From Anaerolineae bacterium (GTDB lineage: Bacteria; Chloroflexota; Anaerolineae; B4-G1), in assembly GCA_030612585.1 (NCBI GenBank), contig JAUWNP010000206.1:1-8024 (forward strand): a DNA stretch of 8,024 nt, in the 5' to 3' direction. Shown here piece after piece: positions 1-6,368 of the stretch. The notes beneath the pieces are model-generated. The model did no database searches. It was given only the letters and a program-made list of their open reading frames with translations, and was not told the origin of the DNA. The translations under genes were made by a program, and so were the position numbers. Position 1 is the first letter of the stretch; the number at the start of each line of letters is the position of its first letter.

Positions 1-1
1 C

Positions 2-1117
2 CCGACTCCCCAACCAACCCCCCAACCATCTAACCAACCAACCCCCCAGCCCCACATCCACCCAACCATCCACCCAAACCCCCAACCAACCAACCAACCA
101 ACCACCCAACCAACCACCCAACCACCCCCGATCAGGTTCACGCTGACCGGCCTGCGCCACGAGCACCAGGGCTGGAACAACTGCGGGCCGACCACGCTGG
201 CAATGGCGCTCTCCTACTGGGGGCGCGGCGAGACCCAGTACGACGTCGCGCCCGTCCTCAAACCCGACCCGGAAGACAAGAACGTCAGCCCGTGGGAGAT
301 GGAAGCGTACGTGCGCAGTCTACTCCCCTCCGCTTCGGGGGGGCCGGGGGGGGTAGGTGCGATCGTGCGCGTGGGCGGCACCCTCGACCGGCTCAAAGCG
401 CTCCTGCGTGCGGGCTTCCCGGTCATCGTCGAGACCTGGTACGTGCGCGACGCCCATGACCAACTGGGCCACTACCGGCTCATCGTCGGCTACGACGACG
501 CCGCCCAGGAATTCCTCACCTACGACTCGCTCCATGGCCCCGACGTGACCATCGGCTACCAGGAACTGGACGAACTATGGCGCGTCTTCAACCGGGCCTA
601 CCTGGTCGTCCACGCGCTGGAGCAGTGGGAACCGCTGGCGGCCGTCCTCGGCCCTGATTTAGACGACGCGGTGATGTACGAGCAAGCGCTGGAGACGGCC
701 CGTGTCGAGGCCCTGACCATGCCCGAGTCCTGCGTGGCCTACGCCGACTGCGCGGATTGGGTGACCTTCTCCTGGTTCAGCGCTGGCTCCAGCCTGACCT
801 CGTTGGGACGGCATGCCGAGGCCGCCGCTGCCTACGACCAGGCACGCCAGTTGAGGTTACACTACCGCATGCTGTGGTACCAGTTCGGCCCCTACGAGAG
901 TTACCACGCCGTGGACCGCTACGATGACACCATCGCACTGGCCGACGCGACGCTGGCGACGGCGAACAACCTGGAAGAATCATACTACTGGCGCGGGATG
1001 GTGCAACTGGCGCAAGGGAACACCGGCGGGGCGCAGGCCGACTTCGAGGCGGCGTTGCGCTACCACGAGAACTGGTCGCCAGCGGTGATCGCGCTGGCGG
1101 GGATGGCGGATGAGTGA
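2..1117 (+). CDS. C39-like cysteine peptidase with C-terminal TPR-like region, 5' partial
   Basis: The frame is open from base 2 to the TGA at 1115-1117 (371 residues visible) with no stop, so the gene starts outside the window; the first ATG, at 203, lies inside the domain. Residues 1-43 are a Pro/Thr/Gln/Asn-rich linker. The motif WNNCGPTTLAMA follows, with the presumed nucleophile Cys61 (codon 182-184). GHYRLIVGYDD supplies the likely catalytic His157, and YDS the Asp175. This Cys-His-Asp order fits the papain-like C39 peptidase family (C39_2 type). Residues about 215-360 are helical with TPR character, best near LGRHAEAAAAYDQA and YYWRGMVQLAQGNTGGAQADFEAAL. By analogy with similar linker-bearing proteins, the missing N-terminus probably holds a signal or membrane anchor and the enzyme works outside the membrane. 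Its substrate is unknown. It stands alone on this strand and converges on the dehydrogenase gene. Family assignment is firm; proteolytic activity is inferred. Confidence 0.85.
   Translation, partial: PTPQPTPQPSNQPTPQPHIHPTIHPNPQPTNQPTTQPTTQPPPIRFTLTGLRHEHQGWNNCGPTTLAMALSYWGRGETQYDVAPVLKPDPEDKNVSPWEMEAYVRSLLPSASGGPGGVGAIVRVGGTLDRLKALLRAGFPVIVETWYVRDAHDQLGHYRLIVGYDDAAQEFLTYDSLHGPDVTIGYQELDELWRVFNRAYLVVHALEQWEPLAAVLGPDLDDAVMYEQALETARVEALTMPESCVAYADCADWVTFSWFSAGSSLTSLGRHAEAAAAYDQARQLRLHYRMLWYQFGPYESYHAVDRYDDTIALADATLATANNLEESYYWRGMVQLAQGNTGGAQADFEAALRYHENWSPAVIALAGMADE
82..104 (+). repeat. CCAA tetranucleotide microsatellite inside coding sequence
   Basis: Five full CCAA units followed by CCA, within a longer CCAA/CCACC-rich stretch (about 11-127) that encodes the peptidase linker. 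The unit is not a multiple of three, so gain or loss of one unit would shift the frame between the unseen N-terminus and the catalytic domain. Confidence 0.8.
325..343 (+). repeat. Small palindrome and G-runs within the C39 gene
   Basis: An 8-bp stem (CCCCTCCG against CGGGGGGG, one T-G pair) encloses a 3-base loop at 333-335. A second run of eight G follows at 346-353. The stretch encodes a Ser/Gly/Pro-rich loop between two otherwise ordinary parts of the peptidase fold, so it looks like a small tolerated insertion. Confidence 0.5.
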
Positions 1118-3299: not shown

Positions 3300-3803
3300 T
3301 TACCCGCCTCTCTCCGCGCTCATCCGCTCAAAAAGCAACCGCAGCCGATCATAGGTCTGATCCAGCCACTCCGGGATGAGCCGCGTCTGGCTCACGACGG
3401 TCATATAGTTGGTATCCCCTCCCCACCTGGGCACGACGTGCAGGTGGACGTGCTCCGCCACCCCGGCCCCCCCGGCCGCGCCAATGTTCACGCCGACGTT
3501 GAAGCCCTGCGGCTCGTATGCGACCCGCAACACCCGCAGGCTCAATTGTGTCAGTGCCATCAACTCAGCCAACGTTTCAGCGTCCAGGCCCTCCAACGAA
3601 TGGATATGGACGTAGGGGACAACCATCAGATGCCCGTTGCTGTAGGGGAAACGGTTGAGAATCACGTAGCACAGTTGGCCACGGTGGAGGATGTGTACCT
3701 CCGCGTCGTCCTCCTGTGGCTTGGCGCAGAAGATGCACCCTTCAGGTACTTCTTCTTCGCCGCGCAGGTAGGGCATACGCCAGGGGGTCCAGAGGTGGTC
3801 CAT
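3300..3803 (-). CDS. HIT-family (histidine triad) nucleotide hydrolase or phosphorylase
   Basis: HIT proteins act on phosphoanhydride or phosphoramidate bonds of nucleotides such as Ap4A or AMP derivatives, using the central histidine as nucleophile. Here the triad is HVHLHVVP (His118, His120, His122). The N-terminus MDHLWTPWRMPYL and the CIFC pair (Cys23, Cys26) with a nearby histidine resemble the Ap4A phosphorylase/FHIT-like branch, in which the cysteines may help bind a metal. Length is 167 residues, normal for that branch. The ATG at 3801-3803 is chosen over an in-frame TTG at 3822-3824, because the family motif begins there and a -10 box lies across the intervening bases. No Shine-Dalgarno sequence is present before it. 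It is the probable first gene ahead of thiolase and dehydrogenase, and divergent from birA. Exact substrate unknown. Confidence 0.9.
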   Translation of the reverse strand: MDHLWTPWRMPYLRGEEEVPEGCIFCAKPQEDDAEVHILHRGQLCYVILNRFPYSNGHLMVVPYVHIHSLEGLDAETLAELMALTQLSLRVLRVAYEPQGFNVGVNIGAAGGAGVAEHVHLHVVPRWGGDTNYMTVVSQTRLIPEWLDQTYDRLRLLFERMSAERGG

Positions 3804-3812
3804 TGCGCTTTG

Positions 3813-3841
3813 ATTGTACAACAAATCGCCGCCGAAGGCAA
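3813..3841 (-). promoter_or_regulatory. Promoter of the HIT gene, probably leaderless
   Basis: On the minus strand TTGCCT (3836-3841), a 17-base spacer and TACAAT (3813-3818). Only 9 bases separate the -10 box from the ATG at 3803, so transcription should begin at or within a few bases of the start codon. The absence of a ribosome site agrees with that. Confidence 0.6.
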
Positions 3842-3846
3842 CTGCG

Positions 3847-3875
3847 TTGACAGATAAGAGTAGGGAGAGTAGAAT
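3847..3875 (+). promoter_or_regulatory. Sigma-70-type promoter of birA
   Basis: Perfect TTGACA (3847-3852), 17-base spacer, TAGAAT (3870-3875, one mismatch). The -10 box forms the end of the left copy of the 9-bp direct repeat that flanks the palindromic element, so the expected start point, near 3882, lies in the element itself. The leader would be about 145 bases. Confidence 0.75.
3867..3875. repeat. Left copy of 9-bp direct repeat (target-site duplication)
   Basis: GAGTAGAAT, identical to 3967-3975 and directly abutting the outer inverted repeat of the palindromic element. The match ends exactly at nine bases on both sides. Confidence 0.7.
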
Positions 3876-3966
3876 GGGTGTGTTTCAAATGAGTTGTAGG
3901 ACAAGTTGGTAACTTGTCCCAGGGGCAATTTGCCAAATTGCCCTACAACCGAGAGGAAACACGCCC
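3876..3966. mobile_element. 91-bp nested palindromic element, MITE-like, without coding capacity
   Basis: The ends are 11-base inverted repeats (GGGTGTGTTTC at 3876-3886, GAAACACGCCC at 3956-3966; one T-G pair). Inside, 3894-3920 and 3922-3948 form inverted 27-base arms around a single A, 22 of 27 matching by hand count. Each arm is itself a hairpin: 9-bp stem and 3-base loop at 3899-3919 and again at 3923-3943. Identical 9-bp flanks are the expected scar of transposition. No reading frame of note exists in it, so a transposase elsewhere would have to move it. The parent family is not identified. As RNA it would put strong structure in the birA leader. It could instead be a static palindromic repeat, but the abutting direct repeat argues for insertion. 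Confidence 0.7.
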
Positions 3967-3975
3967 GAGTAGAAT
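3967..3975. repeat. Right copy of 9-bp direct repeat (target-site duplication)
   Basis: GAGTAGAAT, directly after the right inverted repeat of the palindromic element. It recreates a TAGAAT box at 3970-3975, but no -35-like sequence is correctly spaced upstream of it, so this copy is probably silent. Confidence 0.7.
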
Positions 3976-3980
3976 AGAGA

Positions 3981-4036
3981 CGACAGGAATAAGGCAAGAA
4001 ACAGGGGGCAAGAGACAGGGAGCAAGATGAAAGATG
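3981..4036 (+). repeat. Degenerate purine-rich heptamer tract ending in the birA start codon
   Basis: Reading in sevens from 3981 gives similar purine-rich words, most clearly CAAGAAA, CAGGGGG, CAAGAGA, CAGGGAG, CAAGATG and AAAGATG between 3995 and 4036. The words alternate, so the clearest unit is 14 bases. It supplies both the ribosome site (AGGGAG, 4017-4022) and the ATG of birA. Confidence 0.5.
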
Positions 4037-4851
4037 CAAACGAATTGAGCCAGGAGCAGATCGAGGAAAGTCTGGGGCCAGTGACGCTGTGGCAAAAGGT
4101 GGTCTATCTGCCCACCACGGGTTCGACCAACGACGTGGCGAAGAGCCTGGCGGTGCAGGGAGCGCCCGAGGGCACGGTGGTCGTGACTGACGAGCAGAGG
4201 GCCGGACGGGGACGAATGGGGCGGCGCTGGTTGGCCCCGCCGGCCACTTGCCTGCTCTGCTCGATCCTCTTCCGCCCCACCCTGTCCCCCACCCAGGCCC
4301 AGCGGCTGACGATGCTGTGCGCGCTTGCGGCGTCTGACGCGGTTGAAGAGGTCGCGGGACTGCAGGTCTGGCTCAAGTGGCCCAATGACCTCGTTGTCAA
4401 AGCCCAAAGCCCAAGGCCCAAAGCCCAAGACTGGAGGAAGTTGGCGGGGGTGCTGACAGAGACAGGGATAATGGGGGAGCGACTGGAGTTCGTGGTCGTC
4501 GGCATCGGCATCAACGTGAACGTGGAGCCGGAGACACTACCTGCTCTGGCTCCCGATGCCACCAGCATCCTGGCCGAGGTGGGACAGCAAGTGAACCGGG
4601 CAACGTTGCTGGCCGCACTCCTGTCCGGGGTCGAGCACCGGTACGCGGCACTGCAGGCTGGCGAGAGTCCGCACCAGGAATGGGCCGCCCGGCTGGCGAC
4701 GCTAGGCCGGCCGGTGAAGGCGACCACTCACGCAGGGGTGCTCACCGGCGTGGCCGAATCTGTTGACGAGGACGGCCCACTCTTGCTGCGCACCCTGGAT
4801 GGGACGCTACACCGCCTGATAGCGGGGGACGTCACGCTCACCCGCTCTTGA
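4027..4851 (+). CDS. birA: Biotin--[acetyl-CoA-carboxylase] ligase, without repressor domain
   Basis: Activates biotin with ATP to biotinyl-AMP and joins it to the lysine of biotin carboxyl carrier domains, as in acetyl-CoA carboxylase. Seen in the 274 residues: the entry STNDVAKSLA (33-42), the adenylate-binding GRGRMGRRW (60-68), KWPND (117-121), KLAG (138-141, the lysine that contacts biotinyl-AMP in known enzymes) and GIGINVN (159-165). A small C-terminal beta domain follows, from about residue 225. There is no N-terminal winged helix, so this is the catalytic-only type and should not act as a biotin repressor. The ATG at 4027 has AGGGAG four bases before it. Residues about 125-135 are an extra loop encoded by a heptamer repeat, placed where relatives have a tight turn between PNDL and KLAG. 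It has its own promoter, divergent from HIT, and converges on the membrane-protein gene 24 bp downstream. Confidence 0.93.
   Translation: MKDANELSQEQIEESLGPVTLWQKVVYLPTTGSTNDVAKSLAVQGAPEGTVVVTDEQRAGRGRMGRRWLAPPATCLLCSILFRPTLSPTQAQRLTMLCALAASDAVEEVAGLQVWLKWPNDLVVKAQSPRPKAQDWRKLAGVLTETGIMGERLEFVVVGIGINVNVEPETLPALAPDATSILAEVGQQVNRATLLAALLSGVEHRYAALQAGESPHQEWAARLATLGRPVKATTHAGVLTGVAESVDEDGPLLLRTLDGTLHRLIAGDVTLTRS
4401..4428 (+). repeat. Four tandem heptamers inside birA
   Basis: AGCCCAA repeated four times, the third unit reading GGCCCAA. The tract encodes the extra AQSPRPKAQ loop of the ligase. Seven bases per unit means that a one-unit change would break the frame, yet the present copy number keeps the gene open. 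Confidence 0.85.
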
Positions 4852-6284: not shown

Positions 6285-6368
6285 TGCCGGAGGTGGGAAT
6301 CGAACCCACACGAGGTCGCCCTCAGCGGTGTTTGAGACCGCCCTGTCTGCCTATTCCAGCACTCCGGC
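6285..6368 (-). tRNA. tRNA-Leu (anticodon CAA)
   Basis: A complete class II tRNA of 84 bases. The acceptor arms GCCGGAG and CTCCGGC pair fully, with discriminator A. The D-arm reads CTGGAATAGGCAGACAG. The anticodon stem is GCGGT/ACCGC around the loop CTCAAAC, giving anticodon CAA at 6332-6334 for UUG codons. The long variable arm is GAGG/CCTC, and the T-arm is GTGGG/CCCAC with loop TTCGAAT. CCA is not encoded. The long variable arm and D-arm pattern match leucine tRNAs. Confidence 0.96.

Follow-up and report, generated by a model that had tools for sequence, protein, structure and literature searches.

We analyzed a window of 8,024 nucleotides from an Anaerolineae bacterium (the whole stretch taken from contig JAUWNP010000206.1), in which genes for a C39-like/TPR protein, a 3-hydroxyacyl-CoA dehydrogenase and a thiolase are followed by a HIT-family gene on the minus strand, a BirA-type ligase gene on the plus strand, two genes whose products have no Pfam match and a gene for a TPR protein (Table 1). 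The best named homologs of the HIT protein come mostly from Chloroflexota/Anaerolineae metagenome-assembled genomes, and the homologs' start codon corresponds to a position at about 3803. The HIT proteins P0001-P0003 are 97-98% identical to that of the window. No DNA-binding domain is among the Pfam matches of the birA product. Between the HIT and birA genes lies an element of 91 bp (3876-3966) that is flanked by two exact copies of GAGTAGAAT, as an earlier note on this DNA had reported. At Rfam gathering scores the only match in the window is a tRNA, and no family was matched at the element. At the left edge of the window (1-140), upstream of the C39-like/TPR gene, we observed an array of CCAACCAACC-type units.

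Table 1. Positions of genes, promoters and parts of the element in the window.
Feature	Position	Strand	Basis or remark
C39-like/TPR protein gene, leftmost in the window			ORF/Pfam reading
HIT-family protein, divergent neighbor of birA	3300..3824	-	Pfam PF01230, homologs
HIT-gene promoter, TTGCCT-N17-TACAAT, divergent	3813..3841	-	untouched by the insertion
birA promoter, TTGACA-N17-TAGAAT	TTGACA 3847-3852, TAGAAT 3870-3875	+	11/12 to consensus
Left target-site duplication, GAGTAGAAT	3867..3875	.	
Left terminal repeat, IRL type, GGGTGTGTTTCAAATGAGTTG	3876..3896	+	identical to ends of relatives' MITEs and of ISKra4-family IS
First GTAG-tagged palindrome, GTAGGACAAGTTGGTAACTTGTCCC	3896..3920	+	cargo, GTAG outermost
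Second GTAG-tagged palindrome, GTAGGGCAATTTGGCAAATTGCCCC	3922..3946	-	cargo, head-to-head with the first
Right terminal repeat, IRR type, minus-strand GGGCGTGTTTCCTCTCGGTTG	3946..3966	-	
Right target-site duplication, GAGTAGAAT	3967..3975	.	includes second TAGAAT, without a -35
birA-type biotin-protein ligase	4027..4851	+	Pfam PF03099 + PF02237 (catalytic + BPL_C domains)
tRNA	6285-6368		Rfam, gathering score

Anatomy of the Element

The element has terminal inverted repeats, as had been claimed, but these are longer than the 11 bases ascribed to them: comparison with relatives puts them at about 21 bp, of which 15 positions are alike in the two ends of the window copy, and the outermost 11 bases (GGGTGTGTTTC and GGGCGTGTTTC) are one base apart. 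Within the window the 11-base end is present only at 3876 and 3966. The two inner palindromes both start with GTAG, on opposite strands. In the text of PMC3733652, GTAG REPs are defined as short imperfect palindromes that bear a GTAG tag at one end and often occur as head-to-head dimers, and in these terms the interior of the element is a head-to-head heterodimer that has the GTAG REP form. A larger quasi-palindrome around a single A had been described with arms of 27 bases; it does exist, centered on A3921, but its arms are 28 bases long and match at 23 of the 28 positions. The element is predicted to fold over its whole length with -48.3 kcal/mol (z -7.4 against 200 dinucleotide shuffles). 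It has no coding capacity, 91 bp being too short for a transposase gene, and its length falls in the range of about 70-300 bp that is usual for MITEs. Neither a search of plasmids nor a search of viral contigs with one exact inner 27-mer gave a match.

The birA Promoter and Leader

The -10 box of the birA promoter makes up the 3′ end of the left target duplication. Because the box lies within the duplicated bases, the original promoter survives whole to the left of the element, which is what the earlier note had said of TTGACA-N17-TAGAAT. It had also said that the -10 box was duplicated. A second TAGAAT is indeed present (3970-3975), but it is probably idle, and we rejected it as a new promoter since no -35-like hexamer lies 16-18 bp upstream. 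The region 3780-4080 holds two promoter-like sites, against an average of 0.3 in shuffles. We observed that the HIT and birA promoters stand back to back (3813-3875) with their -35 boxes 5 bp apart, an arrangement that by eye is similar in L007.

Among 12 loci with a birA match we could compare four orthologous divergent HIT-birA spacers (L001, L007, L008 and L010), and the element is absent from all four. Read by eye, L007 carries TTGACA-N17-TAGAAT with a single ...GGGTAGAAT behind TTGACA-N17, L010 carries TTGACA-N17-TACAAT and L008 a looser TTGACG-N18-TAAAAT before birA, and no such promoter was seen in the L001 spacer. The search for an empty site that the earlier note had suggested thus yielded the single GGGTAGAAT of L007 but no empty site at the level of strains, because L007 belongs to a distant relative (birA 57% identical). 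We looked for a closer one in 48 genomes that belong to the same order as G003, the nearest genome, and none had a match across the spacer; in G003 itself the contig ends at the HIT gene.

With both the promoter and the ribosome site intact, the insertion would lengthen the birA leader by 100 nt and add a hairpin at its 5′ end; the new structured leader that the earlier note had foreseen would follow if transcription starts about 7 nt past the -10 box, at about 3881-3883. Modeled together with 40 nt of coding sequence, the leader folds with -44.5 kcal/mol with the element and -5.7 kcal/mol without it, and the mean unpaired probability of the ribosome site is 0.72 and 0.77, respectively, so that the prediction lends no support to the idea that the new hairpin blocks the ribosome site. 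We also rejected the element as an intrinsic terminator, because no T-run follows the hairpin. The likeliest outcome at birA would be a tolerated insertion, possibly with a mildly regulatory effect, and mRNA stability may have changed. As an aside, positions 3990-4035 of the leader form a purine-rich near-repeat (GCAAGAAACAGGGG, GCAAGAGACAGGGA, GCAAGATG), and similar units make up longer arrays in L447 (G197) and L450 (G371).

A MITE Family in Anaerolineae Genomes

Used as a query against the genomes of the 11 best HIT loci, the element found matches in 4 of the 11. Its left end was matched many times in G008 (L008, Zod_Metabat.1210), less often in G002 (L002, isolate G79) and once in G010 (L010); matches to the inner hairpins fell in G002, G003 and G008. 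The pattern of the ends, with one mismatch allowed, occurred in 3 of these 11 close genomes, with multiple copies in G002, G008 and G010. In a search of 396 genomes of the class with no mismatch allowed, 37 genomes contained the pattern, the highest count being 88 matches in a genome of 2.9 Mb; the reversed control pattern had no match among the rows listed in this search.

The copies are flanked by target duplications of their own. In a first set of 57 delimited elements (the window's and two long ones included) the 9-bp duplications were exact in 40 and matched at 8/9 bases in a further 8. We then scored 59 elements that had paired ends and were shorter than 300 bp, 57 of which measured 88-140 bp. 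Exact 9-bp duplications flanked 44 of the 59, and 52 matched at 8/9 or better, a degree of matching reached by 80 of 3422 mismatched flank pairs in the control (2.3%). Over all 95 readable sites the duplications were exact in 65 and at least 8/9 in 79; the other 16, with fewer than 8/9 matching flank bases, count against a MITE with ISKra4-type ends. The 59 elements without exception carry both a left-type and a right-type end, one being of AAATGAGTTG type and one of ATYTCAGTTG type; therefore the family derives from an IS of which both ends were kept, and an origin by fold-back of one IS end was rejected. One 111-bp sequence of G189 is present in nine letter-identical copies, each flanked by an exact duplication that differs from the other eight, an indication of recent movement. 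Chance is excluded, since many relatives have the same ends together with their own 9-bp duplications. The earlier note is thereby supported in its claim of an insertion with a 9-bp target duplication, copies elsewhere having differing duplicated flanks, and on the anatomy it was nearly right.

Targets are AT-rich, with TSA (TCA or TGA) at the center in 29 of the 44 exact cases. That GAGTAGAAT departs from this commonest type counts against the MITE reading of the window's element, as does the close relative G003, in which the cargo is present and the end pattern is unmatched. Crude ORF calls placed 73 MITEs as follows: 39 between tandem genes, 14 between convergent and 12 between divergent ones, 6 spanned by an ORF and 2 undecided, so there is no clear preference for promoters. 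In one further observation (L138 in G373), a MITE sits at a ATTTCATTT site within the apparent right end of another MITE; there a MITE end resembles the preferred target, and the family can thus nest in itself.

ISKra4-Family Transposases With the Same Ends

Ends like those of the MITE frame elements of about 1.6 kb with a transposase gene in L161/L318 (G254), L162/L311 (G176) and L312 (G388), so that the match of the ends to insertion sequences for which the earlier note had called is with the ISKra4 family. Pfam gave no match on three transposase reading frames, which were named by NCBIfam: against NF033572 (ISKra4; cut-off 205 bits) L162/L311 scored 232 bits and L312 293 bits, and the decayed L161/L318 reached 173 bits, below the cut-off. 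A further locus of G254, L313, scored 288 bits, with just one matching end located.

Searching 24 chosen genomes and 396 genomes of the class at the protein level yielded 24 places, or 23 transposase-bearing elements after two fragments were merged. End pairs were found in 7 of the 23 and not in the other 16. Two full-length elements, L324 and L327, have exact 9-bp duplications and two more, L325 and L331, match at 8/9; the ends of all four differ slightly from those of the MITE. No target duplication flanks L311 or L318, the elements with readable flanks whose ends match the MITE exactly, and this we count against an ISKra4 origin of the MITEs; L312 stops at a contig edge. In the close relative G002 a fragment of the transposase gene remains (L315), accompanied by one end that matches loosely. 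Two queries, with E limits of 1e-10 and 1e-30 (the second was restricted to three scored candidates per genome at most), found no ISKra4 relative in the MITE-rich G008, G189 and G373; the MITEs there may therefore have survived the loss of their IS or depend on a more distant enzyme.

The window's element shares with the ISKra4-family IS (NF033572) its GGGTGTG...AGTTG ends, the 9-bp duplication and a family of AT-rich, often TSA-centered targets, but it is only 91 bp long, lacks a transposase gene and has palindromes in place of the interior. On sequence grounds, an ISKra4-type enzyme probably acted on it in trans.

Cargo Palindromes Inside and Outside Shells

We refer to the inner palindromes as cargo and to the surrounding end pair as a shell. 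In other genomes the same ends surround other palindromes (51 of 59 interiors fold better than shuffled ones, with z < -2), and the cargo also occurs bare. G406 (L449) contains 26 bases that match the first palindrome of the window exactly and lack such ends. With one mismatch allowed, cargo-type palindromes without ends were matched 16 times forward and 16 reverse in G003 (mostly both strands of one symmetric palindrome), 9 and 10 times in G002 and 2 and 5 times in G008, and not at all in the other 8 of the 11 close genomes. A doublet similar to the window's lies in L081 (G002) without terminal repeats.

Cargo was located outside ISKra4-type ends in three genomes, namely G008 (161 kb sampled), G189 (387 kb sampled) and G279. 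In the sampled parts of G187, G373 and G002 we found no bare cargo, the extra matches being cut or decayed MITEs or single shared 12-mers, with the exception of one three-12-mer match in the G002 sample. In G189 at least L409, L410, L411, L413, L414, L415 and L416 hold cargo outside ISKra4 ends, and no second shell with a duplication was recognized at these loci. The MITE of G187, used as a query, gave 23 matches in G279, of which 14 were confined to the interior, and 12 of these 14 were read. One of them, L396, has decayed ISKra4-type ends. Another, L393, shows a second type of shell (GAGTATTTCCCACTTAGCGTGG / GGGTATTTCCCACATGACGTGG), flanked by an exact repeat of 8 bp, ATTTGATC, and is the sole one of the 12 to pass a scripted shell test. 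Read by eye, L422 is doubtful and L421, L424, L426 and L427 are without a recognizable shell. We also noted by eye a border like the TATTTCCCACTTAGCGTGG-type ends of L393 in L390, L399, L420, L423 and L425.

Several side observations concern the cargo in other settings. A TCTCAATAATCC-like border stands beside some cargo palindromes in the sampled stretches of G008 and G189 and in L081 (G002); its other end is asymmetric by eye, and it might belong to a single-strand (IS200/IS605-like) element. In L092 and L098 of G003 a lone GTAG palindrome lies inside long ORFs and is read through in frame, twice in L098; the frame in L092 presumably encodes a HemW-like protein. Also in G003, L401 holds a gene for a Y1-type (RAYT-like) transposase with GTAG repeats, GTAGCACGGGCACTTCATGCCCGTGC, alongside, which are unlike the window cargo.

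Discussion

The element at 3876-3966 is very probably a MITE with ISKra4-type ends and a REP-like cargo, and that level of confidence covers the explanation as a whole: a non-autonomous, ISKra4-derived MITE with a GTAG-doublet interior, mobilized in trans and inserted behind the birA -10 box. What could be explained otherwise? The mobile unit could be the palindrome doublet itself, moved in the manner of REPINs or BIMEs by a RAYT-type single-strand transposase, with the GGGTGTG...CACACCC arms a mere target palindrome. Such a scenario would account for cargo without arms in G002, G003, G008 and G406 and has a counterpart in the REP dimers described within longer palindromes in other bacteria (PMC3733652, section 7). 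The Y1-type transposase gene of G003, with GTAG repeats beside it, would likewise speak for it, but the repeats alongside that gene differ in sequence, and the arms carry 9-bp target duplications around many unrelated interiors and match IS ends. To our knowledge 9-bp duplications are not expected of RAYT/IS200 movement either, and we consider the scenario improbable.

Slightly less probable again is that an IS family other than ISKra4, sharing GGGTGTG-type ends by coincidence, moved the element. The failure of two queries to find an ISKra4 relative in three MITE-rich genomes and the two readable IS with exact ends and no duplication would fit such a family, and our transposase searches were aimed at ISKra4 relatives only; against it, however, all three loci in which both ends match closely (L311, L312 and L318) code for ISKra4-family enzymes, and ISKra4 relatives with slightly different ends do make 9-bp duplications. 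We give least credence, and very little, to a native cis-regulatory RNA of birA, such as an attenuator or riboswitch-like leader. The element does sit in the predicted 5′ leader and folds strongly, but it is missing from the four orthologous spacers and bordered by a target duplication, blastn of the element against 80 HIT loci gave a single 14-base match, no Rfam family reached its gathering score and no terminator-like T-run follows the hairpin. Co-option for regulation after insertion is possible.

Returning to the ISKra4-derived MITE, we envisage that an ISKra4-family IS supplied both ends, the interior having been replaced by a head-to-head doublet of GTAG palindromes. An ISKra4-type transposase acting in trans would then have made cuts with a 9-bp stagger at GAGTAGAAT, directly behind the birA -10 box, and repair of these cuts would have duplicated the 9 bp. 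Transcription would start in the left repeat, giving a birA leader about 100 nt longer with a strong hairpin at its 5′ end. How might the cargo have entered the MITE? Our simplest guess would be insertion of palindromes into the hairpin-prone center of a MITE, or recombination with that center, after which the MITE would copy them.

The most unusual part of our observations is that a given cargo turns up in more than one setting and a given shell around more than one cargo. We tentatively suggest a two-tier mobile system in Anaerolineae, in which genome-specific palindrome doublets reside inside shells from more than one IS family, and we would sooner doubt than assert it because a single copy of a second shell (L393) passed the scripted test. 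Possible cases would be the window, with a GTAG doublet in an ISKra4 shell, and G279, with one cargo in two shells. If this is true, one cargo would be spread by several transposases and the cargo of each shell would differ by genome.

MITEs, REP doublets and REP dimers within longer palindromes are already known, as the texts of PMC10969869, PMC3116915 and PMC3733652 make plain. Like known bacterial MITEs (Nezha, Chunjie, MITEAba12, RUP and others), ours are short and non-coding, have terminal repeats and target duplications, are probably moved in trans and are mostly intergenic; they differ in that the interior varies by genome while the ends stay alike, and in that some genomes carry the same interior bare. 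A text search of the prokaryotic MITE review PMC10969869 gave 0 occurrences of 'ISKra4' and 0 of 'Chloroflex' in the text covered. With the GTAG REPs, REP dimers and REPINs as presented in PMC3733652 and PMC3116915 the element shares GTAG-tagged palindromes in a head-to-head heterodimer, but its outer palindrome consists of the two ends of a transposon and has a target duplication of its own, its cargo palindromes come close to full symmetry, and we identified no RAYT that would be cognate to them. Section 7 of PMC3733652 reports that A. variabilis and H. neapolitanus have REP dimers enclosed by longer palindromes and that T. roseum has REPs in small palindromes, and draws no link to an IS for this pattern. 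Like Rickettsia palindromic elements and other intragenic REPs, the palindromes in L092 and L098 of the relative G003 lie in frame inside ORFs, whereas in the window the palindromes lie between genes and are enclosed by a MITE shell. Among the matches listed (titles and starts of abstracts) in a search of open-licence literature we found no title on an ISKra4-derived or an Anaerolineae MITE, and among the matches listed there neither the link to ISKra4 ends nor the mixing of cargo and shells was found.

We conclude that palindromes inside longer palindromes can here be tied to a concrete system of transposition for which ends, target duplications and a candidate enzyme can be named, and that this offers a testable answer to the question of how palindromic repeats without a transposase of their own can spread. 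At the birA locus the insertion fell precisely behind the -10 box, in such a way that promoter and ribosome site were kept and the mRNA leader alone would be rewritten. The locus thus represents a natural experiment on the effect that a 5′ hairpin may have on a housekeeping gene.
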